DNA of 64,000 bases from Spinacia oleracea (lineage: Eukaryota; Streptophyta; Magnoliopsida; Caryophyllales; Amaranthaceae), in the NCBI RefSeq assembly GCF_020520425.1, contig NC_079491.1, positions 32,541,449 through 32,605,448 on the forward strand, written 5' to 3'. The position numbers and the translations under genes were made by a program. The notes below the pieces were generated by a model. It did no database searches and had not been told where the DNA came from. It saw only the letters and a program-made list of their open reading frames with translations. Positions 3,339 to 29,147 of the stretch are shown here, piece by piece. Position 1 is the first letter of the stretch, and the number at the start of each line of letters is the position of its first letter.

Positions 3339-3360
3339 GAGTATATCCCCCTTGGAATAT

Positions 3361-5390: not shown

Positions 5391-5620
5391 AAAGAAGATT
5401 AGGTTTGATCCCCATTTTGGATGTTAACAGAGTGTGCAAAGGGTGTATGGTTGGGGTTCCTTTGGTACTTGTATACTTTGGTTTGGTTCTTTTAGTTCTT
5501 TTAGTTCGACTTCTAGTTTATGGTCGGCAAGCTTTTGGGTTCGGAGCCCATTTTGTAACAACTATGTTTAATATATAATATCTTCGTTGGTGTGTTAAAA
5601 AAAAGAGTATATCCCCCTTG

Positions 5621-6321
5621 AAGTCATACTCTTAGGATAACATGGTTAAAGACTATAATAAGGGTGAAGAGGAGTTTGGAAATTCAAAACTCACTCAAGA
5701 CTCAACATTTTTTTCTCCAACCAAATTTAATTATGTCACATCATCACACTTTATCCTACTTAATTAATTTTTAGGAGTTTAAGTGAGGTGAGTCTGAGGA
5801 TAATGTGTAAAAAAAATAACTTGCATGGACCAGGTTCAAACTAAAATTAGCATGGACAAGGATAAAATATAACTAACTAACTACATGTCATATCACGTGA
5901 CATTTAAAAAACGCGCGCCCCATTTCTCTTCCCCCTCATGCTCACACATTCTCTTATAGTCATTCATCTAATATAGTAACATTACTAAGGATATAGTAAT
6001 CTTATTTATTCGCATCTTATGTTCCGTTCTATTAGAATAACTATAACAAAATGAATAACTATAACAAAAAAAAAAATAGGGACTATAATTGTGAGAGTAA
6101 CTATAACAATAAAAAAAATAGTAGTCACAACCATAATAAATTACTATGAATTTAAAATAGAAATTATAACGGAGAATAATAGTTATATACTCACTATTGA
6201 ATTGTATATTCACCATACCAATTCAATAGTTATAATTTATGAAATATAGTTACCGCAAAACTCATGTAGTTATTCATATTAAACATTTTCAAAAAATAAA
6301 AAAATAAATCTACGTACGATA
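5621..6321. other. AT-rich repeat-like intergenic DNA
   Basis: The segment contains many copies of short words such as TATAGTAAC, AACTATAACA and GTAGTCA. The same style of DNA continues on the far side of the second LINE (7954-9328), so that LINE landed inside this repeat region. The near-palindrome ATGTCATATCACGTGACAT lies at about 5884-5902. No gene is seen. Confidence 0.5.
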
Positions 6322-6335
6322 ATATTGATGTAGCA

Positions 6336-7939
6336 GTAACCTATTCTTTAAATGTAAATGGTGAGCTCACAGTTCCCATAGCAGGAAAAAGAGGCTTACG
6401 ACAAGGTGACCCTCTGTCTCCTTACTTTTTTTGTTTTATGCATGGAATATCTTAATAGGTGCTTGCTTCATCTGGCGACCAATGTAGAGTTCTAGTTCCA
6501 CCCCAGATGCAAAAAATTCAACCTAACACATGTGTGTTTTGCCGATAATCTCTTGCTTTTTGCAAAAGGGGATTTGAATTCAGTTACTGCTATTTATGAA
6601 GCTTTCTAAAATAATTCTTCAGTTTCAGGACTAAAGGCTAATTTGTCTAAAATCTCCATTTATTTTGGTGGAGTCAGTGCAGTTGTTCAAGATCAGATCA
6701 TTGAGAGATTTCAATTCACTAAGGGCATCCTTCCTTTTAAGTACATGGGCGTACCTTTATCGACAAGGAAGTTGACTAGTATGCAGTGCCAACCTTTGGT
6801 ACAAAAGATCTTGAACAAGATAAACTCTTGGTCTTCCAAGATTTTGAGTTATGCCGGTAGGATACAATTGATCAAAGTCGTTCTGTTTGGAGTTCAATAT
6901 TACTGGTGCCAGCTGTTTCTTATTCCCAAAAAAGTCTTGAAGCTTATACAGTCGGCTTGTAGAACCTTCCTTTGGACAGGTGCCTCTAGGATTTCCAAGA
7001 GAGCTTTAGTGGCTTGGTAGAAGGTATATGAGCCTAAAACTGCAGGTGGCTAGGACATAACTAGTATTACCCACTGGAATCAGGCCGCAATCTGCAAGTT
7101 ACTCTGGAACATTCACAAGAAGAAATACTACATCAAAGGTAGACCTATAAGCAAACTTCCAGCTATGCCTCAAGCTTCATGGATGATCAGGAAAATTTTA
7201 AATGCTGGAATATGGTTAGATGCTACTGCTCAAAGAACTAACATACTGCAAAATGATCAGTTCTCAGTAAGGACGGTGTACATGTTGATGAGAGGAAACT
7301 ATGTCAAAGTGCTGGAAAAAAGTCATCTGCAACAATCCTGCTGCTCCTAAATGAATTTTTGTGTGTTGGTTGGCAATCCTAGAAAGATTGTCTACATGTG
7401 ATAGAATGCTGAAGTTTGGTGTCATTTGTAACCCAATTTGTATCTTGTGTAATCAAGATAGAGAAACAGTTCAACATTTGTTCTTTTGTTGCAGTGTTAC
7501 TGCTCAGGTGTGGAATGCGATCCTATCATGGATGGGCTATCGGGTTTCTGCTGACTGGACCACTGAGTTGAATTTTGTTCAACACCATGCTAACAGCTAG
7601 CAACTCAGCTCGACATCAAGTGTATAGACTTGCCTTGAGTACAACAGTTTATAACATATGGATTGCTAGAAATCATGAGAAGTTTCAAGGTTGTCCTATT
7701 GTTATTGATAGTATTATTAGACAAATACAGTTTCAAATTTATGTTAGGTGTTTTAATTGTAAAAAACTCCAAGGTTTGGAGTTCAGTGTCTAGTGTTTGG
7801 AGTCTTAGCCTAGGGAGCCTTCCTAGAAGGGTTGTTAGGTATAAGGTCTTGCTCCAAGGTGTACGTCTTTGTTTGTATTGGGTGTTTTTAGCCTTTGTTT
7901 TTACAATTTGGTTAATATATAAATACTTACCAAAAAAAT
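6336..7939 (+). mobile_element. 5'-truncated LINE, copy 2
   Basis: A perfect 14-bp direct repeat, ATATTGATGTAGCA, lies at 6322-6335 and 7940-7953. A short A-rich tail (7932-7938) precedes the right copy. The element begins inside the reverse transcriptase (a NGE...RGLRQGDPLSPY motif near 6357-6430) and reads on + to a zf-RVT-type C-terminus. It has no RNase H domain like that of copy 1, so the two LINEs are of different lineages. Confidence 0.9.
6345..7790 (+). pseudogene. LINE reverse transcriptase with zf-RVT domain, broken
   Basis: The order of motifs is: GLRQGDPLSPY (about 6394-6426), a degenerate F-A-D-N catalytic-type box at about 6538-6549 (consensus FADD), FKYMGVPLSTRKLT (about 6736-6780), AGRIQLIKVVL (about 6853-6885) and CRTFLWTG (about 6958-6981). 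Then comes the zinc-binding phrase with CILCNQDRETVQHLFFCC near 7440-7495. Stops after 6453 and at 7018 and 7348, together with frame changes, break it. The DN in place of DD also suggests a dead enzyme, but that rests on my hand translation. Confidence 0.8.
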
Positions 7940-7953
7940 ATATTGATGTAGCA

Positions 7954-9328
7954 ACCTTATAAATCATATGGTTACTATTTGAATTATGTAGTCATTATAA
8001 AGCTAAATAAAACACGATTCAATCAATTTTATAGTCAAATATAGTCAAATAAATTATTATAAGAATAACCAAGTATTATAGTAATCATCAATATCAAATT
8101 ACATAAAAATATTAAAAATTATATGGTCATTCTTTATATCATAAAGTTATTGTACGTAACACTCATATAAGTAGTCATTATTTAAAATAGTAATCTTAAG
8201 AATCAATAGTTGTTATTTGAATTACAATGTCACTATAAATCTCAAGAAAATATTATTCAATAATCATGAAATTTTTAGTCCAATGTAGTCAACAAATCAT
8301 TATAACAGTAAACAAATGTCATAGTAATCATCAATATCCATATAATAATTATTTAAATCACGTAGACTTGTTTTAAATCATATAGTCACTTTTTAAATCA
8401 CAAAGTTTCTGTGAAACTCATATAGTTATTACTTAAAGTCGCGAAGTCACTGATTAAACTATCGAAGTTAAAAACGAATTTCGACAAAACATAAACCCTA
8501 ATTTCCAAAACAACAAAAAATTTCAAATTTAAATAAAAATAAACTTTAAATACTTTAAAAATAACGAATCGAGACATAATTTTTACAAATTCTTGCAACA
8601 ATTTGTATAAGAGCGCAACCCTTTTCGATTATAGTCACATAGTCAATCGATAAATCATTATAACGTACAATAAGCAAATGTTATATTAATAATTAGTATG
8701 TTATATAGTTGCAAAATCGTATATACACTCTCAAAATCACATAGTAACTCTTTCAATCACAAAAATTACTATAAAACGCATGTAGATAAAATATATAATC
8801 GCGAAGTCACTGATCGAATTCGCGAAGTTATATAGTATATCGGCAATACACAAACATTAATTTCTCCAAAACAACAAATAATTTCAATTTTAAATAAAAA
8901 TAAACTTAAAATTACTTTAAAACAAAGAACCGTGATGTGATATCTCAAAATTCTTGCGATGATTTGTAGATTAACATAAATTGTTCGATTCGATTTCGGT
9001 AATGGTGAACCTCCTCCTTAATCTACTAATTCCCCCATTTTTTTCTTTCTCTAGTAGATCCAATTAATTATGAAAATTATAAGATAATTAATTACGGTGA
9101 AAATCGCACAAAAGTGAACAAACCCTAGAAAATTGAAAAGAAATATGAAAAACATAGAGAGAAAATAAAGAGAGAGATATGAATACATATCTGAAATGTT
9201 TGGAAAAAATGCTCAAATGAAAAATAAAAAAATTTAAAATGTATATAAAGTGGGCTAGGCACAAATCGCATAGAAACTCTATAAATCACATAGTAACTCT
9301 TTAAATCACAAAATTACTGTAAAACACA
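7954..9328. repeat. AT-rich region with diverged internal duplications
   Basis: Two segments resemble each other. About 8440-8640 and 8795-9000 share GCGAAGTCACTGAT, CAAAACAACAAA, TAAATAAAAATAAACTT and ATTCTTGC in the same order. Likewise about 7985-8100 resembles 8229-8340, both ending in ATAGTAATCATCAATATC. The word GTAGTCA recurs throughout. I see no gene. Confidence 0.55.
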
Positions 9329-10327
9329 TCTATCCATACTATTATTAAATCTCCAAGATAAGGAATGCCACGTTTCCATGTGTCACTGTGATTTGGCAAA
9401 TGAAATGAGACTGTGCCATGTCACGCACACACATGCAATTCCCAATTTTATTATCACAATAAATGTTAGTATCAATGTTCGGACGCATGACCTCTCATTC
9501 ATAACGTAAAGTTTTAACCATTTTTACAATGATATAACATACGACTCTAAAGTAATGGAAAAAGACAAAAGTCATTCTTATAAATATTTAAACTTTAATG
9601 CCCAATATATATTTGAATAATAACCTATTACAGAATATAATTTTATTTTACTTAATACGGAGTATTTCTTAATTACTCAGACTATACGTGAAAATAGTTA
9701 ATTGTTGCACTGCTTCTTTAGCTAACCAATTGTGTATTTTTTTTCATTTTTTTTTGTTATTCAATTTGTAATAATTGATACATTAAGAAATTTCTTATGT
9801 TTATAAGTGAATTCGAAAAAAATAAAATTCTATACGAAGCACCAATCAAGTAAACTACTACTCCCTTCGTATTTTAAAAAGAGATACACTTTTCTTAAAT
9901 GGCCGTATTTTAAAAAGAGATACACTTTCCTTTTTTGTGATGTTTTAATTGGTCTCCACTTCCAATTATATTAATAATTCTCTCTTTCTTGTGGTCCCTA
10001 CCCTTACTCACATCATCCTTTTTCTATATAAATAATTCACCCACTACCTCACTCTCATCTTATTTTAATAAATTTAACTCACTGTCCTAAAACTACGTGT
10101 CGATCAAAGTGTATCTCTTTTTAAAATACGGAGGGAGTAGAAAAATTAAATTTTTATACCGAGTACCAATCAAGTAAAACTAAACTAATCTTAATAAAAA
10201 ACACCATACAACATCTACAAAAGAAAATTGAATCTAAAAAAAGTTGGTACTAATTATAAATTTGTTAATTAATATTTATGTATACTGGTTGAACCGTCGC
10301 GTGCTACGCACGCGTCATTCAACTTGA
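9329..10327 (+). mobile_element. Possible non-autonomous Helitron
   Basis: The left end reads A|TCTATCCATACTATTATT, resembling the TC-start plus ACTATTATTAAA head of many plant Helitrons. Near the right end is a perfect 7-bp stem with a 3-nt loop (CGCGTGC TAC GCACGCG, about 10298-10314), in the position of the Helitron 3' hairpin. The expected CTRR-T terminus is not clean (CTTG is seen), so the 3' border is uncertain. A Stowaway MITE lies inside. No RepHel protein is encoded. Confidence 0.4.
9861..10137. mobile_element. Stowaway MITE
   Basis: The terminal inverted repeats are nearly perfect over about 35 bp. The left reads CTCCCTTCGTATTTTAAAAA and the right ends with its inverse, followed by GAGGGAG. 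TA flanks both sides (9859-9860 and 10138-10139). A partial second copy of the left arm (ATTTTAAAAAGAGATACACTT) follows at about 9906. No coding capacity is seen. Confidence 0.85.
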
Positions 10328-10573
10328 ATATAAAGTAAAATTTTCTTAATTGTGAAGTAATAAAATATTTTTGTAATCTAAATTATTTTGTCCTATGACT
10401 TCCAATTCAAAGTTACTTTCATTGTTCTTAATTTATTGCACCAGTTTGGGTTTTACACGTTTTGCACGTTATACTTTGACCATCTATTATGATTTTTACA
10501 CACAAAAAAATATATAATTGCGTGAATTTTTTCTTAATTTTGTTTAGTTTCAATATATACTTTTAAAATGATA

Positions 10574-10701
10574 TTCTCTCCGTCCCACATTATCTGTTAC
10601 ACTTTCTTTTTTCGTACGTCCCGGATTACTTGTTACACTTCTAAATTTAGAATGGTCCTACAATTATTATATTGTCTATCTCTTCCCACTAAAAAAAGTT
10701 T
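10574..10701. mobile_element. Left half of a MITE split by the CACTA element
   Basis: The segment starts TTCTCTCCGTCCCACATTAT next to TA. Its terminal sequence is the inverse of the terminus that ends at 22532, on the far side of the CACTA transposon. The two halves therefore belonged to one Stowaway-like MITE of about 285 bp. Confidence 0.8.
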
Positions 10702-10710
10702 CACTACAAG

Positions 10711-11010
10711 AAAGCGCGTGATTACCAACCGATTTTACCGACCGCCTAAAAAGGAGTCAGTAAAAATAAATTTATCAACCGATAATGAAGCAGTCGCTAA
10801 ATTTACCGACCGACTGAAAAGCGGTTGGTAAATTTAAAATTTACCAACCGCCTTCGAAACGGTCGAAATATTAGCGACTGCTTTACCCCTATTATGACTA
10901 ATGCGCAGTCGGTAAATATCCGACTATTATCAAAATTAATTTTAAATTTTACTAACCGCTTATTTAATATCTCCGACCAATAAGCGGTTGCTAAATAAAT
11001 AAATAAAAAA
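10711..11010. repeat. CACTA 5' subterminal repeats
   Basis: Both orientations of short words such as ACCGACCG, CGGTTGGTAA, GCAGTCGCTAAAT and GCGGTTGGTAAAT recur about ten times. In En/Spm such subterminal repeats are bound by the element's own DNA-binding protein, so binding sites are likely here by analogy. Confidence 0.75.
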
Positions 11011-11059
11011 AAAAGTAACTTATTCAATTACTGACCAACTATCTTTCACATTTCGAAAA

Positions 11060-11325
11060 AAGCAAAAAACAAATTTGGTTGGGCTCTCAACCTTACGTCG
11101 CAGCCCACGACGGAGCCGACGAGATTATCGTCAGCCGAACTAGGGTAAAACGTCGCCACCCAGCCGAGCACGCCACCCTGCCCGTCGCCGCCACCCAGCC
11201 GAACTACGTCGCAGCCCACGAAGCTTTATAATACACACCGCCCACCCGCGCAGAACTCCACCCGCCGGACCGGATTCCGTCGACGATTACTCAGCCGAAT
11301 TCCGTCGACCCATTTCCCACCCCAG
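11060..11325 (+). promoter_or_regulatory. CACTA promoter and GC-rich 5' leader of the transposase gene
   Basis: The segment is GC-rich and stands out from its AT-rich surroundings. It contains a 16-bp direct repeat (ACGTCGCAGCCCACGA at 11095 and 11206) and a TATA-like TATAATA at 11227-11233. A strong donor CCCAG|GTAAG at 11325/11326 suggests a leader exon followed by a long 5' UTR intron. Its acceptor could be near 12427 (TATTTAG). These transcript details are inferred, not observed. Confidence 0.5.
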
Positions 11326-12250
11326 GTAAGGTTTGTTCTTAGTTTTTCATAACATAATGCTTCAATTTTTCAAACCCTAACTTTGTTGTTTGTATCAAAT
11401 GAAAGAATTACAGTTTTTCATTTCTAAATAATCCTCCAATCTAGGTAAATTTGTTTGGTTTATTGCAAGATTTAATTTTGGTGACTATCTTTCATTAAAT
11501 TGAGCGATTTTCGGGTTTAATTGCTTGGTCTATTGCAAGATAGCATTTTGATGTCTATTGCGATTTTCGGGTTGAATATTCATCGAAACAGTGGATTGCT
11601 CTTTTGATTATCTTAGTCTGGTTCATGTTATTTTTACCTTGACGATAATTCTTTTGAAAATGCAACAATTTTTTGTTTTCTTCTATTTAGAGTTCGACCC
11701 AACTCAAATGACTAAATGAGATTAGTGGAACTTGAGTTGAGATTAGTGGAATACTAATAAGGTGTAAATTGTGGGATTAGTTATTGTAATTAAGAAAGTG
11801 CTCCAATAAAATTAATGACAGTATTATTTTAGGAGTATGTGAGTGATTCCTAGCTGTAATGGTGTCAAGTAGTTGAGATACAGACAATTATAATGGACCA
11901 TCCGAGTCACTCACAACTCACATAATAAATGACAGAACTTAGCGAGCACAGTTATCATTCACTTATATCCATCACAAATTAAGCATAGTCTCTGCAATAT
12001 GACTGGAAATGTAGTTGTTGATCAGCAGATCGATCACTAATTAATAACTCATCCAACTATTCTTCATTTTTAACTTCAATTGAATTAGTGTAGTATTAGT
12101 TTCACTTTCAACCTTAATTTTCTTTTGAGTAGGTAAGAAGGTTCAACACATAAACTAATAATGAGGAATCATATCAAAACTTATATAATGTTTATTGTAA
12201 ATGCATTTTATTATTTATATTTGATTTTTATCCTTATTGGCTTGTGTTTA

Positions 12251-12410
12251 AGTAATTATTGATCTTTATATAAATTATAAGTAAATTATTGAACTTTATA
12301 TAATTTATAAGTGCGTTTGAATAAATTATTGATCTTTATATCATTAATAAATTATTTAACTTTATATCATTAATAAGTATTGATTTTTATATAATTAATA
12401 AAATCAATTA
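12251..12410. repeat. Short degenerate AT tandem repeat in the CACTA leader region
   Basis: About five units of roughly 27-30 bp share AAATTATTGATCTTTATAT-like text. It probably lies within the 5' UTR intron of the transposase gene. Confidence 0.55.
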
Positions 12411-12540
12411 TTTGATTGTTTATTTAGAAAACTTCGAGCGGTAGTTAGACTATATAGTAGGTTTAGTAACATGATTAGTGTGAGATGTGTAGAGATTGGT
12501 TAGTAACATGTTTTTTGTGAGATGTGTAGAATTTGGTATC

Positions 12541-15500
12541 ATGAAAAGAAGAGAGCGTAGTTGGATGTATGATAGACTCGACGGGCGCAATCTTAAGCCC
12601 GACTTTCTCAAGGGGGTTGGAGAGTTCATTGAGTTTTGCAAAGAGCATCCAACATGCAATGATGGTGACAAAATAAGATGCCCGTGCCCCTTGTGTGATA
12701 ACAGGCGTTTTCATGATACTGAAACAGTTAGAGTACATTTGTACAAGAAGGGCTTTGTTCGTAATTACTATCAATGGATATGTCAAGGGGAAAGCTTAGT
12801 AGAGTCCTCGCGTGTTCAGCCAAATCAATATCGGGATATGGTTATTGATGCTCTTGGAAATAATCAAGAGCATTTGGTGAATGAAGAGGGTAATTCAGTT
12901 GAAGAAGAACCAAATGATGAAGCTAAGAAGTTTATAGACCTTCTAAAGGCAGCTGGAGATCCATTATATGAAGGGAGCAAACTCTCTGTGTTGGAGATGG
13001 CATCAAGAATTGCAAGTTTGAAATGTGAATTCAACTTACAACACAGGTGTGTGGATGGGTTTGCATCTTTGATGAATGATGCGATTCCAAATAACAACCA
13101 AATGGGTAGAACTTTCAATAGCACAAAGAAGGTTCTTGAGGGCTTGGAACTTCCTCATGAGAGGATCCACACATGCCCTAAAGGTTGTTTGCTCTTCTGG
13201 AAAGGCGATGCACAGTTAGATAAATGTAGAGTATGCGGAAGTGATCGGTATAAGAAGACTGCAAAGGGTAAGCTTATTCCAGCAAAAGTTCTAATCTATT
13301 TTCCAATCACACCGAGGTTGCAAAGGTTGTATGCTACCAAGAACATTTCGGAGGATATGACTTGGCATGCCAAGAATCCCCGAGTTCAAAACACCTTCGC
13401 ACATCCTAGTGATAGTCAAGCGTGGAAGCACTTGGATACAACCTTTCCTAATTTCGCATCAGAGCCACGAAATGTCAGGCTTGGTTTGTGCACGGATGGA
13501 TTTGCCCCCCATGGTAAATTTGGATCCCAATATTCATGTTGGCCAGTTATTCTTACACCATACAACTTGCCTCCATCGATGTGTATGAAAAGACCATTCA
13601 TGTTCCTTTCTTTGCTCGTTCCCGGTCCTAAAAATCCTAAAGGAAACTTGGATGTGTACATGCAACCACTCATTGAAGAGTTGAAATAGTTATGGGAGGT
13701 TGGGGCTATGACTTATGACATCTCAAGCAAGCAGAATTTCAACCTCCGCGCAGCCCTTTTGTGGACTATTAGTGATTTTCCTGCATATGGAATGCTATCT
13801 GGATGGTCCACGGCCGGAAAGAAGGCTTGCCCTTATTGTATGGATAAAAGCAAGGCATTTTGGCTTGAACATGGAGGTAAAGTTTCATGGTTTGATTGCC
13901 ATCGACAATTCCTTCCACATGATCACCCTTTTCGAAAGAATAAAACAGCTTTCTGCAAAAACAAAGTTGAAAATGGCATGGGTCCGCATATAATGTGTGG
14001 AGAAGAATTGTGGCAATGCGTGAAGGACTTGCCTAAAGCAACTGATGGTCCTGAAGCTCTTAAGAAGTTGAAGAGTGCCAAAATGGGTTGGTTCAAACAA
14101 AGTATTCTATGGGAACTCCCATATTGGAAGGATTTGCTTCTTCGTCACAACTTGGATGTCATGCACATTGAAAAGAACTTTTTTGACCAACTCATAAACA
14201 CTGTGATGGATGTGAAAGGTAGCACCTCGGACACCACTAGTGCAAGGAAAGATATGGCTAAGTATTGTAAACGTCGGCAGTTAGAGCTTGGAAATGGAAA
14301 TCAAACCATGCCAAAAGCACCCTTTGCACTTGACAAGGCTCAAAAGAAGGTGTTATGTGAATGGGTTCGAGACTTGAAATTCCCAGATGCTTATGCTTCA
14401 AACTTGAGCAGGTGTGTTAATCTTCAATCATGCAAGCTGTATGGAATGAAGAGCCACGATTGTCATGTCTTCATGGAGAGGTTACTTCCGGTTGCTTTGA
14501 AGGAGTTGCTTCCCTTGCATGTTTGGAAGGCAATTACAGAGATTAGTCAATTCTTCCGAGACTTATGCGCCCCCACTATCAAAGCGAGTGACATAGATCG
14601 CTTGGATAAGAATATAGCTGAGATCTTGTGCAAGCTAGAGAAGATTTTTCCACCTGCATTTTTCAACTCAATGGAACACTTGCCAGTTCATCTTCCACAT
14701 GAGGCAAAGGTTGGTGGTCCCGTCCAGTACAGGTGGATGTACCCATTTGAAAGGTAATCAAAATAATACAAATTAGCGTAAATAAATTATTACTTTAAAT
14801 ATCTTATATGTTTACTAGTAACTATTAATCAAACTTACATAATTTATAGGTTTCTTAACCATTTGAAGCGTAAGGTTGGAAATAAGGCACGTGTAGAAGG
14901 CTCCATATGCAATGCTTACCTAATGGAGGAGATTACGAACTTTTGTTCCCACTATTTTCAACCTGAGGTTGACACCAAAGCAAGGGATCTAGGAAGAAAT
15001 GTCCATTCGGTTGTTGAGAACCAACATGACGTTAATATCCCCGAGATGTTCAGGGTGGATTGTGGTCGTGCACCTACTAATGGCCGTTTGCGCTTCTTGC
15101 AAGACATGGAGTATGATCGAGCACATCTTTATGTGCTTGCAAACAGTGGCATCTTAGGTGAATATGAAAGGTAAAAAACTATAATTTAATTATTGTAAAC
15201 TCTTCTAACGACGTATTTAACCTTTATTTCCTTAATTACCATAGGAAATTTGAGGAGCACATTCTCCAAACTCAACCTCACATAGTAATGGAGGATATTT
15301 GGAGTAAATGCGAAGCCCAGTTCCCTGAATGGTTTAAATCACATGTGAGATTAATTGTATTTTGCTTTTATTCATAAACAATATTACTTACACTAGTCAT
15401 TGAAAGGGAAAAAAAATTACTAACTAATTCTACGAATTAGGTTCTCCGGTCTTTGAGTCCTAATGATGTGACACGGGCGCTTGCGATGGGCCCCTCTAGA

Positions 15501-16178
15501 CAAGTAAGGACATGGAGCCGGTTCTATGCGAATGGATATAATTTTCAAACTCATGACTACGGCAAACACAAGTCAACTATGAATTATGGAGTGTGTGTAC
15601 AAAGTCCTGATGAAGTTGACTACTTTGGCATTTTGGAGGAGGTGGTTGAACTTTCTTATTGTGGTAAGCTTCAAGAGTACAAGACAATCTTGTTTAAGTG
15701 CAGCTGGATGGATTCCGTGAAGGGTATGAACATTCATGAACAATACAAACTTGTTGAGGTCAATCATTCTAAGAGATACCCAAAGTATGACCCGTTTGTA
15801 TTGTCTTACCAAGTTAGTCAAGTATACTTTGCACACTACCCCAGTTTGAAGAGGGATAAAGCCCAATGGTGGGCTGTGTTTAAAACTAAGGCAAGGTCTG
15901 TGATTGATGCTCCGGTTGACTTAGACTTTCTACAAGAAGATGCAAATGAGGTTTCTTCAGCTCTTTGTGCTCCAGATGAGATCCCAGATTATGAAGATCA
16001 AGATGATGATGATGATGATGACGATATTAATGATGGTGATGCTGATAGTATGAGTGATGAGGATGAGGATGATGAAGATGAGGATGAGGATGAGGATGAT
16101 GGTGATGATGACATTGATGATGATGATGACGATGGTGATGATGATGATGCTGATGATTCTGATGGATACGACGATTAA
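12541..16178 (+). pseudogene. TNP2: TNP2-type CACTA transposase with one in-frame stop
   Basis: This is the catalytic transposase of the element. Proposed exons are 12541-14753, 14850-15170, 15245-15344 and 15441-16178. All junctions are GT-AG and keep frame, giving 1,124 codons. The start is the ATG before KRRERSWMYD, because the Transpos_assoc domain begins there (residues about 5-85, with the zinc-like C-P-C-P-L-C). Next comes Transposase_21 (about 150-460, with CPKGCLLFW, CRVCGS, DFPAYGMLSGW and CPYC). DUF4218 spans the first intron (HLPVHLPHEAKVGGPVQYRW), and DUF4216 lies in the last exon (YFGILEEVVELSY, then KCSWMD). The last 75 or so residues are nearly pure Asp/Glu. Codon 383 is TAG (13687-13689) and the same frame continues homologous on both sides, so a point mutation is the only visible break. 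Confidence 0.9.
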
Positions 16179-16547
16179 CTTGATATTGCTGATTTTGGTC
16201 CTATTTGGTTGTTTAATTTTAGGTTCAAGAAATATTATGTAGTTGTTTGGTAAACTTATGATTGGAGTTTGACATGTGTTGTCTTTTATGATTGAACTTT
16301 GAATTATGTTGTTGTTTATTGAACTTATCATTGAACTTTTTATTTTGGTTGTATAAATTTATGTTTGTTAGACAATCTGTAGTTGTTTGTTACTTGTTAT
16401 TAGGTAATTATATATGTAGCGTAAGTTTATTAATGTTAATGCTTGGTTTGTGTTCCATTAAATAAACAGATGTCCAATCGATGAATTGTCTTTTATGATT
16501 GAAATTTGAGTTATTTAAACTTGGTTTGTGTTCTACTAAATAAACAG
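16179..16547. other. Spacer between the two CACTA genes
   Basis: This holds the presumed 3' UTR of the transposase gene and the leader of the next gene. A direct repeat is seen: CTTGGTTTGTGTTC followed by AAATAAACAGATGTCCAATCGA occurs near 16442 and again near 16520. The second copy provides the start codon of the downstream gene. Confidence 0.5.
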
Positions 16548-19500
16548 ATGTCCAATCGAGGAGAACATTCAGCCATCCGCAGTCGTTTAGGTGCACGTGG
16601 AGGTGGTCGTGAAGGTGGTCGTGGAGGTGGCCATGGAGCTGACCATGGAGCTGGCCGTGGAGGTACTACACGGGTGACCCAACCCTCACTGGATACCTAC
16701 TTTGATGATGACGAAACTCAAGGTGAATACTCTGAAGAGGTGGTACCTGATTCACAAGTAAATGAAGAAGCTGAGGATTCTGGAGTGGTTTGGATGGCAC
16801 CGGGTGAACTTTGGTAAGATTTAGAGTTACATTTTAATTATTTTATCTCATGTATGAATTTTGTAAACTAACGTTACTTGTGTTATTTCCTATTCCACTA
16901 TGTAAGGTTTGATCACAGTTCCATTTCGCGGGATATTACTAACGTCATCCAGAAATATTTCAAGAGTCCTTGGACGTGTTATACCAAAGTTGACAAGGAT
17001 ACAAAAGATCATTGGTTCACTCTGTTCAAGGTTTACACAATTTTATATCATGTAATGTATCACTTTTTATTTTTCAACTTTCTATAATTGTAACATAACA
17101 AAATATCCTTCTTTTCTTTTCTTTTGTGTAGAGGACCTATAAATGGTTGCCTGAGTTTGATCACCTTGCTGTGCGTGATTACCATGCAAATGCATATAAA
17201 CGGGTTAAGTACATCCACTACCAAATAACAAGAAAGAGTAATGGAAGGAAGCCAGATTGGATGTCTGAGAAAGTGCATGCAGATATGATGAAGCACGTGG
17301 ATGATGATGAATTCAAGAAAAGATCTGAGCATGCTAAGAAAAATAGAAGAGGGGGTTCATTAACCAACAATGTTGAACCATCACATTTCCAAGGTTCCAT
17401 TTCCACAACTGAGGCTGCAAAGAAAATGGTAAGTTTAATAATGTAACTAAATTTCATTTAACGTTGTTACTAATTTGATTATTCACAAAAATTACTTGTA
17501 TAATTAGGCAAAGGAAAGTGGAGGTGTGATGCCTACAGCTGGTGACTTGTATTTGAAGACACACACGAAGGAAGTACCGGGTAAAGGGAAAGTCCCTTGT
17601 AGTAGCAAAGCAAAGCAAATCAAGGTAACTTACTATTATTCAAACAAAGCTTATGAAACACGTTTTAAGTTTAAAATCAGCCCTTAGTTCTTTTAGTTGA
17701 AAAATGGGAGCGAAAATGCCTTATTTGGTCAATATAGGTCCTATATCGATAAAATATGACTTAAATGTGCTTACATTGATTCGAATGAGTTTTAGGAAGC
17801 TTGAATATGCTTACATTGATTCGAATGAGTTTTATAGAGCTTGAATATGCCACACAAAACATGTAAATGGTTTGAAATGACAAGTTTGGTTCCTTAGCAC
17901 AAAGTTGGGCGAGAAAATGACATTTTAGGCAAAATATGACCTATAACGAACAAATAGGCCTTAGATGTGAGTAAACACATTTGAATGTGACTTAGCAAGT
18001 TCAAACAAAGCTTATGAAACACGTTTTAAGTTTAAAATCAGCCCTTAGTTCTTTTAGTTGAAAAATGGGAGCGAAAATGCCTTATTTGGTCGATATAGGT
18101 CCTATATCGACAAAATATGACTTAAATGTGCTTACATTGATTCGAATGAGTTTTATAGAGCTTGAATATGCCACACAAAACATGTAAATGGTTTGAAATG
18201 ACAAGTTTGGTTCCTTAGCACAAAGTTGGGCGAGAAAATGACATTTTAGGCAAAATATGACCTATAACGAACAAATAGGCCTTAGATGTGAGTAAACACA
18301 TTTGAATGTGACTTAGCAAGTTCAAACAAAGCTTATGAAACACGTTTTAAGTTTAAAATCAACCCTTAGTTCTTTTAGTTGAAAAATGGGAGCGAAAATG
18401 CCTTAGTTGGTCGATATAGGTCCTATATCGACAAAATATGACTTAAATGTGCTTACATTGATTCGAATGAGTTTTATAGAGCTTGAATATGCCATACAAA
18501 ACATGTAAATGGTTTGAAATGACAAGTTTGGTTCCTTAGCACAAAGTTGGGCGAGAAAATGACATTTTAGGCAAAATATGACCTATAACGAACAAATAGG
18601 CCTTAGATGTGAGTAAACACATTTGAATGTGACTTAGCAAGTTCAAACAAAGCTTATGAAACACGTTTTAAGTTTAAAATCAACCCTTAGTTCTTTTAGT
18701 TGAAAAATGGGAGCGAAAATGCCTTATTTGGTCAATATAGGTCCTATATCGACAAAATATGACTTAAATGTGCTTACATTGATTCGAATGAGTTTTATAG
18801 AGCTTGAATATGCCACACAAAACATGTAAATGGTTTGAAATGACAAGTTTGGTTCCTTAGAACAAAGTTGGGCGAGAAAATGACATTTTAGGCAAAATAT
18901 GACCTATAACGAACAAATAGGCCTTAGATGTGAGTAAACACATTTGAATGTGACTTAGCAAGTTCAAACAAAGCTTATGAAACACGTTTTAAGTTTAAAA
19001 TCAACCCTTAGTTCTTTTAGTTGAAAAATGGGAGCGAAAATGCCTTATTTGGTCAATATAGGTCCTATATCGACAAAATATGACTTAAATGTGCTTACAT
19101 TGATTCGAATGAGTTTTATAGAGCTTGAATATGCCACACAAAACATGTAAATGGTTTGAAATGACAAGTTTGGTTCCTTAGAACAAAGTTGGGCGAGAAA
19201 ATGACATTTTAGGCAAAATATGACCTATAACGAACAAATAGGCCTTAGATGTGAGTAAACACATTTGAATGTGACTTAGCAAGTTCAAACAAAGCTTATG
19301 AAACACGTTTTAAGTTTAAAATCAACCCTTAGTTCTTTTAGTTGAAAAATGGGAGCGAAAATGCCTTATTTGGTCGATATAGGTCCTATATCGACAAAAT
19401 ATGACTTAAATGTGCTTACATTGATTCGAATGAGTTTTATAGAGCTTGAATATGCCACACAAAACATGTAAATGGTTTGAAATGACAAGTTTGGTTCCTT

Positions 19501-21519
19501 AGCACAAAGTTGGGCGAGAAAATGACATTTTAGGCAAAATATGACCTATAACGAACAAATAGGCCTTAGATGTGAGTAAACACATTTGAATGTGACTTAG
19601 CAAGTTCAAACAAAGCTTATGAAACACGTTTTAAGTTTAAAATCAACCCTTAGTTCTTTTAGTTGAAAAATGGGAGCGAAAATGCCTTATTTGGTCAATA
19701 TAGGTCCTATATCGACAAAATATGACTTAAATGTGCTTACATTGATTCGAATGAGTTTTATAGAGCTTGAATATGCCACACAAAACATGTAAATGGTTTG
19801 AAATGACAAGTTTGGTTCCTTAGAACAAAGTTGGGCGAGAAAATGACATTTTAGGCAAAATATGACCTATAACGAACAAATAGGCCTTAGATGTGAGTAA
19901 ACACATTTGAATGTGACTTAGCAAGTTCAAACAAAGCTTATGAAACACGTTTTAAGTTTAAAATCAACCCTTAGTTCTTTTAGTTGAAAAATGGGAGCGA
20001 AAATGCCTTATTTGGTCAATATAGGTCCTATATCGACAAAATATGACTTAAATGTGCTTACATTGATTCGAATGAGTTTTATAGAGCTTGAATATGCCAC
20101 ACAAAACATGTAAATGGTTTGAAATGACAAGTTTGGTTCCTTAGAACAAAGTTGGGCGAGAAAATGACATTTTAGGCAAAATATGACCTATAACGAACAA
20201 ATAGGCCTTAGATGTGAGTAAACACATTTGAATGTGACTTAGCAAGTTCAAACAAAGCTTATGAAACACGTTTTAAGTTTAAAATCAACCCTTAGTTCTT
20301 TTAGTTGAAAAATGGGAGCGAAAATGCCTTATTTGGTCGATATAGGTCCTATATCGACAAAATATGACTTAAATGTGCTTACATTGATTCGAATGAGTTT
20401 TATAGAGCTTGAATATGCCACACAAAACATGTAAATGGTTTGAAATGACAAGTTTGGTTCCTTAGCACAAAGTTGGGCGAGAAAATGACATTTTAGGCAA
20501 AATATGACCTATAACGAACAAATAGGCCTTAGATGTGAGTAAACACATTTGAATGTGACTTAGCAAGTTCAAACAAAGCTTATGAAACACGTTTTAAGTT
20601 TAAAATCAACCCTTAGTTCTTTTAGTTGAAAAATGGGAGCGAAAATGCCTTATTTGGTCAATATAGGTCCTATATCGACAAAATATGACTTAAATGTGCT
20701 TACATTGATTCGAATGAGTTTTATAGAGCTTGAATATGCCACACAAAACATGTAAATGGTTTGAAATGACAAGTTTGGTTCCTTAGAACAAAGTTGGGCG
20801 AGAAAATGACATTTTAGGCAAAATATGACCTATAACGAACAAATAGGCCTTAGATGTGAGTAAACACATTTGAATGTGACTTAGCAAGTTCAAACAAAGC
20901 TTATGAAACACGTTTTAAGTTTAAATGTGCTCCATTTAATATATTTTTTATGCATGGGTGATAATCATTTTAATTCTTGTAGGAAAACTATGAAAAAAAT
21001 GTTGCTGAATGTGTTGAAAAAGGCATTGCTAAAGATCCCAACCAAATCTACTTTGAGACAGTAGGTGGGAGAAAGAAGGGAAAGGTCCCCGGGCTGGGTA
21101 GTGGAGCCTCTCTATACTTTGCACCATCTAGAAGGGGTGGTAGTTCTTCTAGCTCATACACCCCATCTATTTATTCTCAAATGTCATCTCGATTGGAAGA
21201 GACTCAACAACAGTTGACCCAAAAATCCATTGAGCTTGAAACAACAAAAAATCAGATGTTAAAGGCTTTGGAGGACGATCTACTTTTGAGGCAAAGGGAG
21301 AGAGAAGAAAGAGAAGCAGAGCGACTACAGCACCAAAGGGAGATGGAAAGGGAGAGACAAGAGAGAGAAAGGGAGAGACAAGAAAGAGAAGAACATGCCG
21401 CCCAGATGAAAAAGGCAATGGAGTCTTACGAGCGGATGTTCAGTCAGTGTACTGGTTTTCCTTTCTCGCAGTCGCAGGACCCTCGAGATCCAACCGGAGG
21501 CGGGACACCTTTGTGTTAG
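16548..21519 (+). CDS. Second CACTA protein: RG-rich, Ptta/En/Spm-type middle, coiled coil
   Basis: Five exons (16548-16813, 16907-17030, 17132-17428, 17508-17624 and 20983-21519) join through GT-AG introns with consistent phase and give 446 residues. I find no stop inside. Residues about 15-45 are a Gly/Arg-rich stretch (GGGREGGRGGGHG). About 55-85 are acidic. About 90-230 contain the W-T-x-Y, DHWF and YKWLPEF phrases plus NRRGGS, matching the plant transposase Ptta/En/Spm family (Transposase_24). About 335-430 form a long Glu/Arg coiled coil (REREEREAERLQHQ). By analogy with TNPA it should bind subterminal repeats and help transposition, which is inference. Intron 4 is 3,358 bp and holds a tandem repeat array. 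The protein looks intact, unlike the transposase. Confidence 0.85.
17641..20924. repeat. Ten-unit 321-bp tandem array inside a CACTA intron
   Basis: The phrase CAAACAAAGCTTATGAAACA recurs at 17641, 18002, 18323, 18644, 18965, 19286, 19607, 19928, 20249, 20570 and 20891. The spacing is exactly 321 bp except for the first unit (361 bp, with an extra 40-bp internal duplication). The eleventh copy is cut after about 34 bp. Units are nearly identical, so the array is young. It lies wholly within intron 4 of the second CACTA gene, so splicing should remove it. Confidence 0.97.
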
Positions 21520-21674
21520 GTAGTTAGTATTCTTGTATTAGTTTGAACTAGTTACAACTTTTCGTATTAACATGTTTGAACAACATTATGTGTATTATGA
21601 ATCTTTGTTGTATGACTTTGAACATGTTTAATATTATAACATCGAGCAGGTTTCATACGATTTTACAGAATTTA

Positions 21675-21790
21675 TATAAATTCGTATATATACAGGCATA
21701 TATAATATTTAAAGGTACATATTTAATATTTATACAGGCATATATAATATTTACAGGTACATATATAATATTTATACAGGTATATATGCG
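21675..21790. repeat. Short AT tandem repeat downstream of the second CACTA gene
   Basis: ATACAGGCATATATAATATTT and its variants (TACAGGTACATATATAATAT) repeat about four to five times between the stop codon and the 3' subterminal repeats. Confidence 0.7.
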
Positions 21791-21825
21791 ATTTTACAAA
21801 ATTGGCTGCAAATGATATTTGCATA

Positions 21826-22345
21826 ATTACCGACCGCAAAGGCAGTCACAAATTTAGTGACCGCCACAAAAGCAGTCACTAATTTAGTGACCGCCCCCAA
21901 GGCAGTCACTAATTTAGTGACCGCCAAAGCAGTCACTAAATTAGTGACCGCCACCAAGGCAGTCACTAATTTAGTGACCGCCACAAAAGCAGTCACTAAT
22001 TTAGTGACCGCCACGAAGGCAGTCACTAAATTAGTGACCGCTACCAAAGCAGTCACTAAATTAGTGACCGCCAAGCGGTCGCTAATTTAGTGACCGTCAA
22101 GGCGGTCGCTAATTTAGCGACTGCTTTAGCGGTCACTAATTTAGTGACTGCTTTGGCGGTCACTAATTTAGTGACTGCTTAGGTGGCGGTCGCTAATCCT
22201 GTCGGTAAATTTTAGCGACCGCCTTCCAGTTGGAGTTTCCTAAATTACCGTCCAGGTGAAAACTGACCGCCTTTTTGCGACCGCTGGCGGTCGCAAAATC
22301 TTTTACCAACCGTTTTTCGCGTTTTACCAACCAATTTTAGCAGTT
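21826..22345. repeat. CACTA 3' subterminal palindromic repeats
   Basis: About a dozen units of near 30 bp contain the self-complementary core GTCACTAATTTAGTGAC flanked by GCAGT/GCGGT and CGCC. They grade into GCGGTCGCTAATTTAGCGAC-type units and then into AACCGATTTT-like text next to the terminal repeat. The open frames through this zone (repeated AVTNLVTA phrases) are artefacts of the repeat. Confidence 0.9.
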
Positions 22346-22373
22346 GGTAATTAATCAATTTCTTGTAGTGTTT

Positions 22374-22532
22374 GGTCATCGCTCTCTCTCTCACATTCAA
22401 TTAAAAAAATATCCCACTAACTCCTATCACATCTACTTTTTCAATAAAATAATGATTGATAATCAAACAAACACTTATCACCTAAAATTTTGTGCAAAGG
22501 TAAGTGTAACGAGTAATGTGGCACGGAGGGAG
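22374..22532. mobile_element. Right half of the MITE split by the CACTA element
   Basis: It ends ...GTGGCACGGAGGGAG next to TA (22533-22534). This is the inverse of the left end at 10574 over about 35 bp (Stowaway-type terminus then TACACTT). Together with 10574-10701 it reconstitutes one MITE. Confidence 0.8.
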
Positions 22533-22924
22533 TACAATTAAACATATTAATTATCAACTTTGTGCATTGACAAACGTAAAAATTTAATTATGTGATAAAC
22601 AAAGAATAATGTAAATATTTTTGAGGTGGATTTTTATCAATTTTTTATCGTAATTCAAATTAAATAACCATAATATATTATTCAGACTTTGTAATTAGAC
22701 AAAGTTTATAGTTTGATTTCAGTATGTACACTAATAGGATGAATATTTATATTTACACTCTTGTAATTTACGAAGTTCATAATTTGTAGCAGATTGTTAA
22801 CTTTTGAGATATTTTTCCTTGAAAGTGCAAAGTTCCATTCACGATATATTGATATCTCTATTAAGAGATTAATATTTTATTTGATTACAAGTAATAAGTT
22901 AATTTTTGGCAACATTATAAACTA

Positions 22925-23185
22925 CTTTCTCCGTTCATTTTTACTAGCTACGTTGGTCACTTTCACGCATGTCAATGTACAATTTTGATCATTAATATCT
23001 TAAATTATCTTTAGGCAAAAATTATAAAAATTGATATTTTGAACAAACACGTTGAGACGACGAATCTAACAAGATACTACATGACTATGTTTTATATTTC
23101 ATATAAATCACCAACAATAATCAAAGTAAATTAAGTAAATAATGTAAAAAGTTCAAACGTTGCGAGCATTAAAATACGGATGAAG
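22925..23185. mobile_element. Degenerate Stowaway-like MITE
   Basis: The left end CTTTCTCCGTTCATTTTTAC follows TA. The right end ...AAATACGGATGAAG is its rough inverse. The interior (CACTTTCACGCATGTCAATG, CTAACAAGATACTACATGAC) is shared with the element at 30583-30840, which supports a family. Confidence 0.65.
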
Positions 23186-25375
23186 TTGTAACATGGAATT
23201 GACAACTGATCTGATATCAAGGGAACGGACATCACTCTGAGCCTACTTGCAGTGGACAATAGATTGAATAAATAAGTTTATTCACTTCCGCCAATCATTC
23301 ACTTCAAGAAATGGTTGACAAGAATGATAATACAATATTATTTCAATATTTATTTGCATATTTTGTCCTTTGCATTTTCATTACGAGCTTGATCAATATT
23401 GGATTGTGAATAAATTGTAGTATAAAAACATCCACATAAAGAAGCTGTGCCCCTTGAATTGGTTCCTTTTTATTTGTCATATAAATCATATTGGGAATCT
23501 TAATTCAAGTGTCACACGCGACGAACTTCTAATAAAACTGATGGTATATTAAAATAAGAAGTTAGTTTAATAAAATATGGTTATTGATAACTTGAGATAT
23601 TAATAGGTAAAGGTATGTCTTGAAAAGCCTGACTAAATAAACATGTCAATTAAAAATACACGGAAAGTGTCACAATAAAAGTTAGTTATATTAACATTAA
23701 GGGATTATCGAGTTTTAAAATGCTCATTAAACAAAACGTATGTTTTTTGTTGAAAAAAAAAGTATGTTAATCTATTGTACAACTCTTGTTAGATACTCCG
23801 TATATACTAACTCACCTGATGTAGCCATAACTAAGCTTTAAACTATATGAATTCCCCGTGTTTTAATTTGTTTGAAGAAAAAACTTATCTTTGTTTTTAA
23901 TTGAACTTGAGCCTATCTTACTTGAGGAGTCATTTTTCGGAAATAATTCATTTTAAGTCAAACTAAAATTATTCATACTTATTGTAATTAATTTATTTGT
24001 CCTTAACATTTTATTATTCCCTTGACTTTAATTTATCTTTGTTAGTGTAAAAACCATATATAAACAAGGAAATTAGACAATTATGACTCTAGTTTAGAGA
24101 TCACCTAGGATATAATGTTTCTAGTCGCTCATACAATTTAAAAGTCTACGCTTATACCCCATTTTTTGTGGAAGTTATTTCTTTGCACAACAAATTCATG
24201 TTAGCAAATGAAAAATAACAGTAGACATATTTATATGAAAGGAGATAATTTAATAAGTATTCAGCAACAACGTGTTCAATGCTTGTAGAAAATTCAGCCG
24301 CTTATGAATGACGTCAAACAATTGCTTACATGCACATTTTGACAGTTATAATATTGACATGTCTAATGAGAATGCAACAGACTATGTTCCTTCTATTGCT
24401 ACACTTTCTGACCCACCAAGATATAGATCCTTTAATTGATACCAAATTTTCTCATTTTATTTCCTTAGATAAATTAAGATATAGTCTTGAGAGAAGATTA
24501 TCTTAATTAATTTCTACTTATTTTTTTTAAATGAAATTAATAAGGAAATTAGTGGAAAATATGTCCCCTTTTCAACTTTTGAGTAGTGAAGCTAAGTTGT
24601 ATACTCGTATGAAGTCCAAATCAAAACAAAATATGATACCAATTAAAAAGAAAACTCATTTTTATTTAATGTACAAAGTTTGACTTTCATGCTCCTCAAC
24701 GCAAAAGTTTGATCATAAATATCTCTGGTCAATATTTAGAAATCATAAAAACCGATTCGATCCGAGAAACATCTCACATTATGTTTTCTTTAACTATCAA
24801 CGTTGATAAAAGTGGAGTATGCAAAAAGTTGTAAAAAGCAAAATGTGTAGATTAAAAGAAAACCGATAGAGTATGACTTTTACTTTACTCAGCTCTACTC
24901 TTTTACTATTTATGTGGTCGAAGTTATAAAACAAGTGGTCATATATTTATACGCATGAGGAAAAATATTTTTTGTGATAACTTGTTGAATTCCTATTTAT
25001 TTTTCTGAATACCGCTTTTAATGATTTTACTAACCCAAAAATTGAAGATATTAATCGTCAATACAAAAACTTATATATCATGGTCACGTGTAAAACACCA
25101 CTTTTTTTCCAAATAGTTATACTTACCCAACATGACCAATTAGTTATATTCAATTGTTCTTAATTATATTTTTCAATAAAATAGTTATATTTTCTAATCA
25201 AATATGTAGTAGTTATAGTTTATAGTCAAATAGTTTTTTTTTTTTTTGAAATGGTTACTTTGGCGATCTTATAGAAGATACTACTCATTGGTCAAAGCAA
25301 TACAACAACAATTGTGTTGAATGTATATGAATAGCAACCAGGAAAAAGAAGGGAGTAGGTTTTTGAAAACAGTAA
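23186..25375. other. AT-rich intergenic DNA, no gene seen
   Basis: This is about 2.2 kb with scattered poly-T runs and no open frame resembling a protein family. I could not assign transposon ends. Confidence 0.5.
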
Positions 25376-25379
25376 GCCT

Positions 25380-25555
25380 TGTGTAAGACCGACTTATACT
25401 CATAAGACAATAACAATTAGCAATAAGAATGTAACTTTCTAATTATAAATATAACTATATATTTGATCATAAAGTATAGTTGTAGTCTTATAATTGTAAC
25501 TTTCTAATTATAAACGTAATTGTAGTCTTATATTCATAAGACGGTCTTAACTAAA
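25380..25555. mobile_element. Small inverted-repeat element (MITE-like)
   Basis: The left arm TGTAAGACCGACTTATACTC is mirrored by the right arm ...ATATTCATAAGACGGTCTTAA. Between them GTAACTTTCTAATTATAAA occurs twice. The target-site duplication is unclear. Confidence 0.5.
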
Positions 25556-25983
25556 AGTTTACATTTTAAAAATATAAAATTTATTTCTCGACTTCTTGTA
25601 TTTTATTTTTTGTGATATATGTTAAGCAAAAACACAACTAACCCGTCAAAAAAACAATTCCTTAGTCCCTTTATGTTTGTCATCCATTTTTATTTTTGGT
25701 CCGCCACTAAAAGATTGTCCCAAGACTAAAATGATCACGAATTGAAACCACAATATTACTTCAATATAACACAAATTCTTACTTAAAGGTGGTATATAAT
25801 AAATATTGTACATCAAAGTTAAAGTTAACTTAAAATTCTTAAACTATCTATTTTTTTAGTGATACATTTTTATTTTAGTAAAAATTATTTCCTTTAAAAA
25901 TCACTATCAATGTATGAAGGTAACCATTTAACTCTCTAAAATGCTTATGCATCAATATTTTTCATAATATTAAAGTTATATTA

Positions 25984-26284
25984 ATCCCTCCGTATTTTAT
26001 TAAGTGATACACTTTGATAGGAATGGAGTTTTAGGAGGGTTAGTTGCTTTTATTAAAATAAAGCCGAAGTGAGGTAGTGAGTTGTTATTTATTGTAAGAA
26101 ATTTATGGTGAGTCATTTAATGTAGTAAAAACAGGATGTGAGTAAGTGTGAAGATCATAAGAGGAAGATAACTATTAACATAATTGAGAGTGGAGACCAC
26201 GACATGCCAAAAATAAAAAGTATATCACTTACTAAAATACGGGCGAATAAGGAAAGTGTATCACTTAGTAAAATACGGAGGGAG
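25984..26284. mobile_element. Stowaway-like MITE
   Basis: The left end (A)TCCCTCCGTATTTTATTAAG and the right end ...TTAGTAAAATACGGAGGGAG are inverse, with TA on both sides. A second partial right arm precedes the end (CACTTACTAAAATACGGGCG). Confidence 0.8.
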
Positions 26285-26320: not shown

Positions 26321-26661
26321 TTTGGTAATATTAATCCAACCTTTGGCCGATTTTCTTTTATTAATCTCACCTACGCCATATTTTTTAATAATCTCACCTT
26401 TACTACCCAACGACTTTTATTGGGCTTAAGTGAGAGATAACCGGTGAAAAATTCAACGAAATGGTGATGAATTGATGATTATGACTGAATATATCGAGAG
26501 AGGGTACTGCAATGTAGGGACATATTACCGCCTACAACAGGTTTATGACCTGTTAGGCCCAATAAAAGTCGATGGATAGTAAAGGTGTGATTATTAAAAA
26601 ATATGTCGTAGGTAGGTTTAATAAAATAAAATCGGCCAAAGGTTGGATTAATATTACCAAA
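26321..26661. mobile_element. Long-TIR MITE of about 340 bp
   Basis: Arms of about 100 bp face each other. TTTGGTAATATTAATCC starts the left arm and its exact inverse ends the right arm. The inner arms also match (TTTACTACCCAACGACTTTT against AAAAGTCGATGGATAGTAAA). No protein is encoded and no clear TSD is seen. It lies close to the preceding MITE. Confidence 0.7.
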
Positions 26662-27705: not shown

Positions 27706-29147
27706 GATTTTTTCATGAAATGCCCCTGAGGTTTCACGAAATTCACCAAATACACTTGCGTGTTTCAAAATACATAGTATACCCCTATTTTTTTTAAAAT
27801 GCACCAAATACCCTTATTTTTAACGGAAGTTTAACTCCGTTAATATTAACTCTTAATTAACTACCTAACCCACAATTAACCTACTAAATTACTATATTGC
27901 CCCTCCCTTAATATCTCTTCTTCCACTCTCTTCTTTCATTCTCAACCCACTTTCAATTACTACTGCTCCTTTCTCTTCGATCTCCTGCACCATGTCAGCC
28001 TCTTGCTCATCCGCCCACCACTACAACTGTCACATTCTCTCCTGACCCTTCGCCGCCCCAACCACCTTCTCGTTCACCACCACCAACGGACCAGCAACTC
28101 AAGCTACCGCTCCTTTCTCTTCGATCTCCTGCGCCTAGTAACCACCACCACCAACTCACTGCCCCATTATCCGACCTCCGGCATTCCATCATCAATTAGC
28201 ACCACCAAAATCCACACAAAACAACTTTTGCAAATCCAAGAACCCTAATTCCCAAATTCAATCACATACCCAAACTTAATTTTTCCTACAAAATGGATTT
28301 TGATTCAAACGACGACAATAAATAAAATTCAATCGACGAAACAAACAACCAGAACAATAACCCCCCACTGTCAAAATCAAACCTAACTAATAGAGCGATG
28401 GGTAGCTAGGGCGTAATTCATCATGATAATGAAATGTTGGGTGGAATTTTGGGTGGCCCGTTTCAATTCATCATCATTAATTGCTACCCACAACTTAATT
28501 AGCTAGGTTGATTTTAGGTTTGATTTTGACAGCATGATAATTGGCAAGTAAAGTGAATTGGGTAAAAGAATCAAAAGCACCTCACCCTAAGAAATCCCCA
28601 TTTGGTAGAACTAAAACCCGTGAATTTAACAAGTGGGAAGAGTTCAGAGTAAGGAATTGAATACTCAGATGAAGAATCAACATGAGGAGTTTCTGTTGCC
28701 ATTGTTGAAGGAGAGAGAAAATGTGAGTAACAACATCAAGAAATGGGTTTTCTGGGAGATGGATTTGTAACTATTTATGGGGAATACCATGACTAATGTC
28801 TGGGTTCATGATGTTTGATGATGGTGGTGGGGGAGATGTACCAAGCTGTCAGTAATGTCTAGAGGAGAGTGAAAGCAGGGAAGTGGAGAGGAAAAAGAAA
28901 GGAAGAAGGATTATTTTTTAAGGTTAGTTTGTTAATTAGGAATAAATGAGTTAATTAGGAGTAATGGATAACTAATTATATGTTAATTTAGATTGATTCG
29001 TGCTAATGACTAACGGCGTTAACGTCGGTTAGCCTTTGAGGGTATTTAGTGCATTATTTTAAAAAATAGGGGTATACTATGTATTTTGAAACACGCAGGT
29101 GTATTTGGTGAATTTCGTGAAACCTCAGGGGCATTTCATGAAAAATC
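27706..29147. mobile_element. Long terminal inverted repeat element (MULE-like or foldback), non-autonomous
   Basis: The first and last roughly 100-130 bp are inverse. Left: TTCATGAAATGCCCCTGAGG and ACACTTGCGTGTTTCAAAAT. Right: the same phrases reversed. Inside is a second inverted pair, CTGTCAAAATCAAACCTAAC near 28367 against GGTTTGATTTTGACAG near 28516. There is also a direct repeat, GCTCCTTTCTCTTCGATCTC, at about 27966 and 28109. No transposase is recognisable and the TSD is unclear, so the superfamily is open. A fragment of the same terminus lies at 36741-36940. Confidence 0.65.

Follow-up and report, generated by a model that had tools for sequence, protein, structure and literature searches.

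Arrays of satellite-like repeats within transposable elements have been described in several plants. In the account given by Belyayev and co-workers (PMC8978399), the 3' part of the CACTA-like element Jozin from Chenopodium quinoa contains an array of 32.5 satDNA monomers of 171 bp (5550 bp in all): the predicted coding region is placed at positions 1676-9409 and the array at 10098-15648 of 16523. For C. sosnowskyi, a similar satellite is reported with no link to CACTA elements. An earlier paper from Belyayev and co-workers (PMC7320549) describes CficCl-61-40, a satellite with a ~40-bp monomer, as a derivative of the tnp2 region of a CACTA-like element. Based on these published Chenopodium cases, it is already known that CACTA elements may carry or seed satellites. 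In Lathyrus sativus, nine satellites are described as having arisen from short arrays within LTR retrotransposons (Vondrak and co-workers, PMC7004042), and a review lists further cases (PMC9659126).

We herein describe a tandem array in a predicted intron of a CACTA (En/Spm) element from Spinacia oleracea. The DNA analysed was a stretch of 64,000 nucleotides (contig NC_079491.1, positions 32,541,449 to 32,605,448; referred to as the window), and all coordinates below are those of the window (Table 1).

Table 1. Features of the CACTA element and of the array in its predicted intron (window coordinates).
Feature	Position	Strand	Basis
CACTA (En/Spm) element, 11,669 bp, TTT on both sides	10702..22370	+	Terminal repeats, flanks
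Transposase open stretch: transposase-associated domain and first half of tnp2	12493..13689	+	PF13963 E 1.8e-20; PF02992 E 4.3e-42, profile 2-100
Transposase continued: second half of tnp2 and start of DUF4218	13690..14757	+	PF02992 E 3.9e-30, profile 102-212; PF13960 E 1.1e-26
Open stretch with remaining DUF4218	14782..15174	+	PF13960 E 1.2e-12
Open stretch with DUF4216 and acidic Asp/Glu run	15441..16178	+	PF13952 E 1.2e-15; GAT-rich tandem repeat 15987-16164
Exon, start of Transposase_24, ending AAAATG/GTAAGT	17132..17428	+	PF03004 26.6 bits, profile 2-50 of 138
Exon between 79-bp intron (17429-17507) and array intron	17508..17624	+	AG/GT borders, open frame
Predicted GT-AG intron, 3358 bp	17625..20982	+	GT at 17625, AG ending 20982
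Tandem array	17639..20925	+	Exact-anchor unit starts, Tandem Repeats Finder (TRF), border identity
40-bp internal duplication in unit 1	17760..17850	+	TRF period 40, 2.3 copies, 90%; alignment to unit 2
Units 4-10, order A A B A A B A	18642..20888	+	No mismatch at 963-bp spacing
Last exon: end of Transposase_24 and charged coiled-coil-like tail	20983..21519	+	Alone PF03004 15.6 bits, E 0.018, profile 100-135
3' subterminal repeats, ~30-bp GTCACTAATTTAGTGACCGCC type	21825..22197	+	TRF, repeat comparison

Structure of the host element

The 5' end of the element reads CACTACAAGAAAGCGCG, and the reverse complement of its 3' end reads CACTACAAGAAATTGATT. Terminal inverted repeats beginning with CACTA were therefore found at both ends (CACTACAAGAAA at 10702 and, inverted, ending at 22370): the first 12 bases were identical, and 28 bases matched at 82%. 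This pair of ends was chosen by eye among the CACTA/CACTG sites in 9001-13000 and 21001-26000. In a text search of the literature with the end motif and four motifs from the array unit, three papers matched, all by the end motif and none by a unit motif; one of the three describes a radish CACTA element, the terminal repeat of which is given as CACTACAAGAAAA. The 3-bp target site duplication (TTT/TTT) may also be a chance match in A+T-rich DNA. In addition to the 3' subterminal repeats, there was a related but weaker stretch of 96 bp near the 5' end (70%; E 1.3e-4).

The Pfam domains of the element were arranged in the order of Transpos_assoc, tnp2 (Transposase_21), DUF4218, and DUF4216, while the open stretch at 16503-16817 had no Pfam match. 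The tnp2 transposase (PF02992) was found in two adjoining open stretches with one stop codon between them. Since this in-frame TAG (13687-13689), which may be a sequencing error, interrupts the transposase reading frame within tnp2, this copy is probably not autonomous. A second gene part of the Ptta/En/Spm type (PF03004, Transposase_24) was present further downstream, on both sides of the array.

The array and its predicted intron

The first exon with a match to Transposase_24 (26.6 bits) fell just below the curated cut-off of PF03004 (28.7 bits) on its own. When this exon was joined with the second (17508-17624), the score was 48.3 bits (profile 2-71), and the addition of the last exon (20983-21519), across the array, gave one open frame with 71.4 bits (profile 2-135 of 138). 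The array thus lies in a predicted intron that splits a single domain, which supports its placement inside a gene of a mobile element in a preliminary description of this DNA. The array was also considered as a coding sequence, a reading that was abandoned since the Pfam domain carries on across the splice borders. The coiled-coil-like character of the tail in the last exon was judged from the letters and not with a prediction tool. Weak sub-cut-off Pfam matches to other families (such as Exonuc_VII_L, PRP1_N, PAS_13, and DUF3069) were set aside; those in the last exon mostly cover its charged tail.

The array (3287 bp in total) begins with a unit of 361 bp, which is followed by nine of 321 bp each and by a partial unit of 37 bp. 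By an exact anchor, the units start at 17639, 18000, 18321, 18642, 18963, 19284, 19605, 19926, 20247, 20568, and 20889; the ten full units span 17639-20888, and the partial unit then runs to 20925. Unit 1 is longer than the others because of a 40-bp tandem duplication inside it. Tandem Repeats Finder gave a period of 321 with 9.7 copies, 99% matches, and a score of 6154 (17800-20925); the array therefore shares with satellite DNA a tandem arrangement of highly similar, satellite-sized monomers. The ten units counted in the preliminary description were recovered, except that the first is not 321 bp and that the tenth is followed by the partial unit. The array was described as filling the intron; it accounts for 3287 of its 3358 bases, with 14 bases outside at the 5' end and 57 at the 3' end. 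Removal of the array would reduce the intron to 71 bp, or to ~108 bp if the partial unit stayed in place, which is near the size of the neighbouring 79-bp intron.

The monomer divides into two halves of 161 and 160 bp that were identical at 102 of 159 positions, and their alignment score of 75 was ~9 SD over that of 1000 dinucleotide shuffles (mean -15.3, SD 9.6, maximum 23). The view of the unit as an old dimer with a 161-bp offset, already put forward in the preliminary description, is thus well supported. A weaker 20-bp period was also noted: 135 of 321 positions matched at offset 20, compared with a largest value of 125 in 1000 shuffles at offsets 10-149. The 40-bp duplication in unit 1 corresponds to two 20-bp steps, possibly by chance. 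When one array unit was folded as DNA, the z value was -1.96, with 2 of 100 shuffles being equally stable; there was no clear structural role from folding.

Variation among units 2-10 was confined to five columns, and two marker positions distinguish type A from type B. Units 4, 5, 7, 8, and 10 (type A) were identical to each other, as were units 6 and 9 (type B). Units 2 and 3 were of type B at both markers and had one and two further differences, respectively, from units 6/9. Unit 1 was mixed (first marker A, second marker B), so that the two markers were concordant in 9 of the 10 units; with its 40-bp duplication set aside, it showed 2 differences from unit 2 over 321 positions, and 3 from either an A or a B unit. 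The order of A A B A A B A reported previously for units 4-10, without mention of units 1-3, was reproduced. Within 18642-20924, no mismatches were found at a spacing of 963 bp (0/1320), compared with 8/1962 at 321 bp, 6/1641 at 642 bp, and 4/999 at 1284 bp.

Origin of the array

We consider the array to probably be non-coding, tolerated intron cargo of the CACTA element that has grown in place, most recently by duplication of a block of three monomers; most likely, it has no function. An old dimer of 161 and 160 bp, which is visible in the internal similarity of the unit, would have given rise to the 321-bp monomer. Copies of this monomer may then have accumulated locally through unequal exchange, slippage during replication, or misaligned gap repair following excision. 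In the last large step, a block of three monomers was probably duplicated, giving A A B A A B A. Neutral expansion of this kind would be tolerated if the array is spliced out: given the splice borders and the continuous domain, predicted splicing would leave the coding sequence uninterrupted by the array. The greatest divergence was found in units 1-3, at the 5' edge, which fits exchange homogenising the array away from the edge; however, the same argument fails at the 3' edge, where unit 10 does not differ from units 4, 5, 7, and 8.

The first monomer may have arisen from intron sequence; alternatively, the CACTA element may have captured part of a satellite already present in the genome. This is a tentative explanation, which we regard as possible but somewhat improbable; it concerns the origin only and is compatible with later local expansion, and our confidence in the two readings overlaps. 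The monomer consists of two halves of ~160 bp, a common size for satellite monomers. When the array unit was sought elsewhere within the 64-kb window, nothing significant was found (best match 15 bp, E 0.12), which leaves no source inside the window and is consistent with capture. An exact 21-bp piece of the unit had 0 matches in each of the prokaryotic and viral contig collections, which says little given the contents of these collections. A precedent is the capture proposed for the 171-bp satellite in the CACTA-like element of Chenopodium quinoa (PMC8978399). On the other hand, the edges of the array lie only 14 and 57 bases from the splice sites, with little space for captured flanks, and the similarity of the unit to the quinoa monomer (169 letters as printed) varied with scoring: under three schemes, it was reached by 0, 49, and 30 of 500 shuffles and, among control pieces of the window, by 4/466, 46/465, and 26/471.

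Local expansion with a final block of three monomers is the most economical reading of the 963-bp identity. Starting from A B A, units 4-10 may be reached by two tandem duplications with three-unit blocks, compared with three when only one- and two-unit blocks are used; the parsimony advantage of the three-unit block is one event. The order of A A B A A B A is therefore likely to reflect one recent three-unit duplication, and not an established higher-order satellite. The order statistics for the trimer are weak. In an exhaustive permutation of unit orders, 2 of the 21 arrangements possible with five A units and two B units were perfectly period-3, and 5 of the 21 were equally periodic at any period of 2-4. 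A random order of the markers had been named in advance as evidence against the trimer; the order observed was periodic, but may still be due to chance (2/21), and single-unit conversion could also yield it.

A genuine higher-order repeat, in which a 963-bp unit undergoes ongoing homogenisation and acts as the seed of a new satellite, is unlikely. The lack of mismatches at 963-bp spacing is consistent with such a repeat, as is the order of units 3-10, with only 2 of 56 orders being as periodic (period 3). However, units 4-10 contain only 2.33 copies of the trimer, which is defined by just two linked single-base diagnostic sites, and the period is broken by unit 2: for units 2-10, 12 of 126 orders were at least as periodic, and 17 of 126 for any period of 2-4. 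The repeated 963-bp trimer of the preliminary description thus stands as a perfect identity between a small number of copies, whereas the satellite-style higher-order organisation drawn from it goes beyond the evidence; a single block duplication explains the order.

An assembly artefact, in which the assembler produced the number or order of the units, is very unlikely: sequence without private changes between units is of a kind that assemblers may collapse or expand, and the treatment of the repeat in assembly could also have caused the lack of private changes in the seven inner units (4-10), but units 1-3 have distinct changes and the array is flanked by two exons that continue one domain, so that the array exists and its exact size and order alone are at risk.

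The present array bears on the question of how satellites begin. It is short and fully readable with an unusually clear anatomy, and early steps are seen together in it: the old dimer, the monomers, and what is probably a fresh duplication of three units. Its position in an intron hints at the reason why a transposon is able to tolerate an array of this kind. A broader proposal is that the CACTA intron splitting Transposase_24 is a lasting satellite nursery, in which splicing hides expanding monomers (unrelated to each other or fast-changing) and transposition spreads them, with the 3' arrays of C. quinoa occupying the same intron in front of an unannotated last exon; we regard this as speculative and improbable.

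Comparison with known systems

The link between CACTA elements and satellites has been published previously, and the value of the present locus is as a clean example. In the literature searched, as far as the sources cover this point, no report was found of an array in an intron splitting Transposase_24; such a report may exist. The host element resembles the soybean element Tgmt* (PMC2613891) in its CACTA ends, 3-bp target duplication, subterminal repeats that are richer on the 3' side, and gene of several exons that encodes tnp2 together with a second domain. The second domain of Tgmt* is TNP1 (pfam03017), and differs from that found here (Ptta, pfam03004); among the matching places listed for that paper, no satellite-like intron array is mentioned. 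The tandem repeats of Ogre in Lathyrus sativus are similar in that a short array is located inside a mobile element; however, Ogre is an LTR retrotransposon and not a CACTA element, and its arrays are reported to expand into long satellites (PMC7004042). CficCl-61-40 likewise connects a CACTA element with a satellite array, although its ~40-bp monomer is described there as derived from a coding fragment, whereas the array in this study consists of non-coding intron sequence (PMC7320549). Jozin from C. quinoa is also a CACTA-like element with a multi-kilobase array of a satellite-sized monomer. As mapped in that account, the Jozin array lies 3' of the predicted coding region, while the array described here is located in an intron inside Transposase_24 and has a 321-bp dimeric monomer (PMC8978399). 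The kind of system, a CACTA element with a satellite-like array, is therefore known, and its position in the Transposase_24 intron might be new.

Structure of the array and coding region of the CACTA element

Within the 321-bp monomer of the intronic array, a weak 20-bp period was detected (example unit, 19606-19926), exceeding that of all 1000 shuffles. Unit 1 (361 bp) contained a 40-bp tandem duplication at 17760-17850, and its 40-bp copies were more divergent than the whole units were from one another (90% vs 99% matches); the 361-bp form may therefore be the older one. In the transposase region, an in-frame stop codon (TAG, 13687-13689) was present within the tnp2 domain, and the profile match picked up again immediately 3' of it. 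The long acidic run encoded by the GAT-rich repeat lay towards the terminus of the DUF4216 open stretch.

Repeat features of the window
Feature	Position	Description
GAT-rich repeat	15987-16164	Encodes long Asp/Glu run
Inverted repeat pair	26321-26429 and 26553-26661	109 bp, 92% identity
Inverted repeat pair	27709-27814 and 29039-29145	107 bp, 95% identity
Related segment	36018-36725	Direct copy
Related segment	55637-56284	Inverted copy
Related segment	60483-61195	Direct copy

Other repeats downstream

The three related segments, with TTTCCGATTCCG-type short repeats inside them, probably represent LTRs from retrotransposons that are nested or lie next to each other. The two direct copies were 92% identical to each other, and the inverted copy showed approximately 83-84% identity to them. 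Both inverted repeat pairs look like the termini of small DNA transposons or MITEs.
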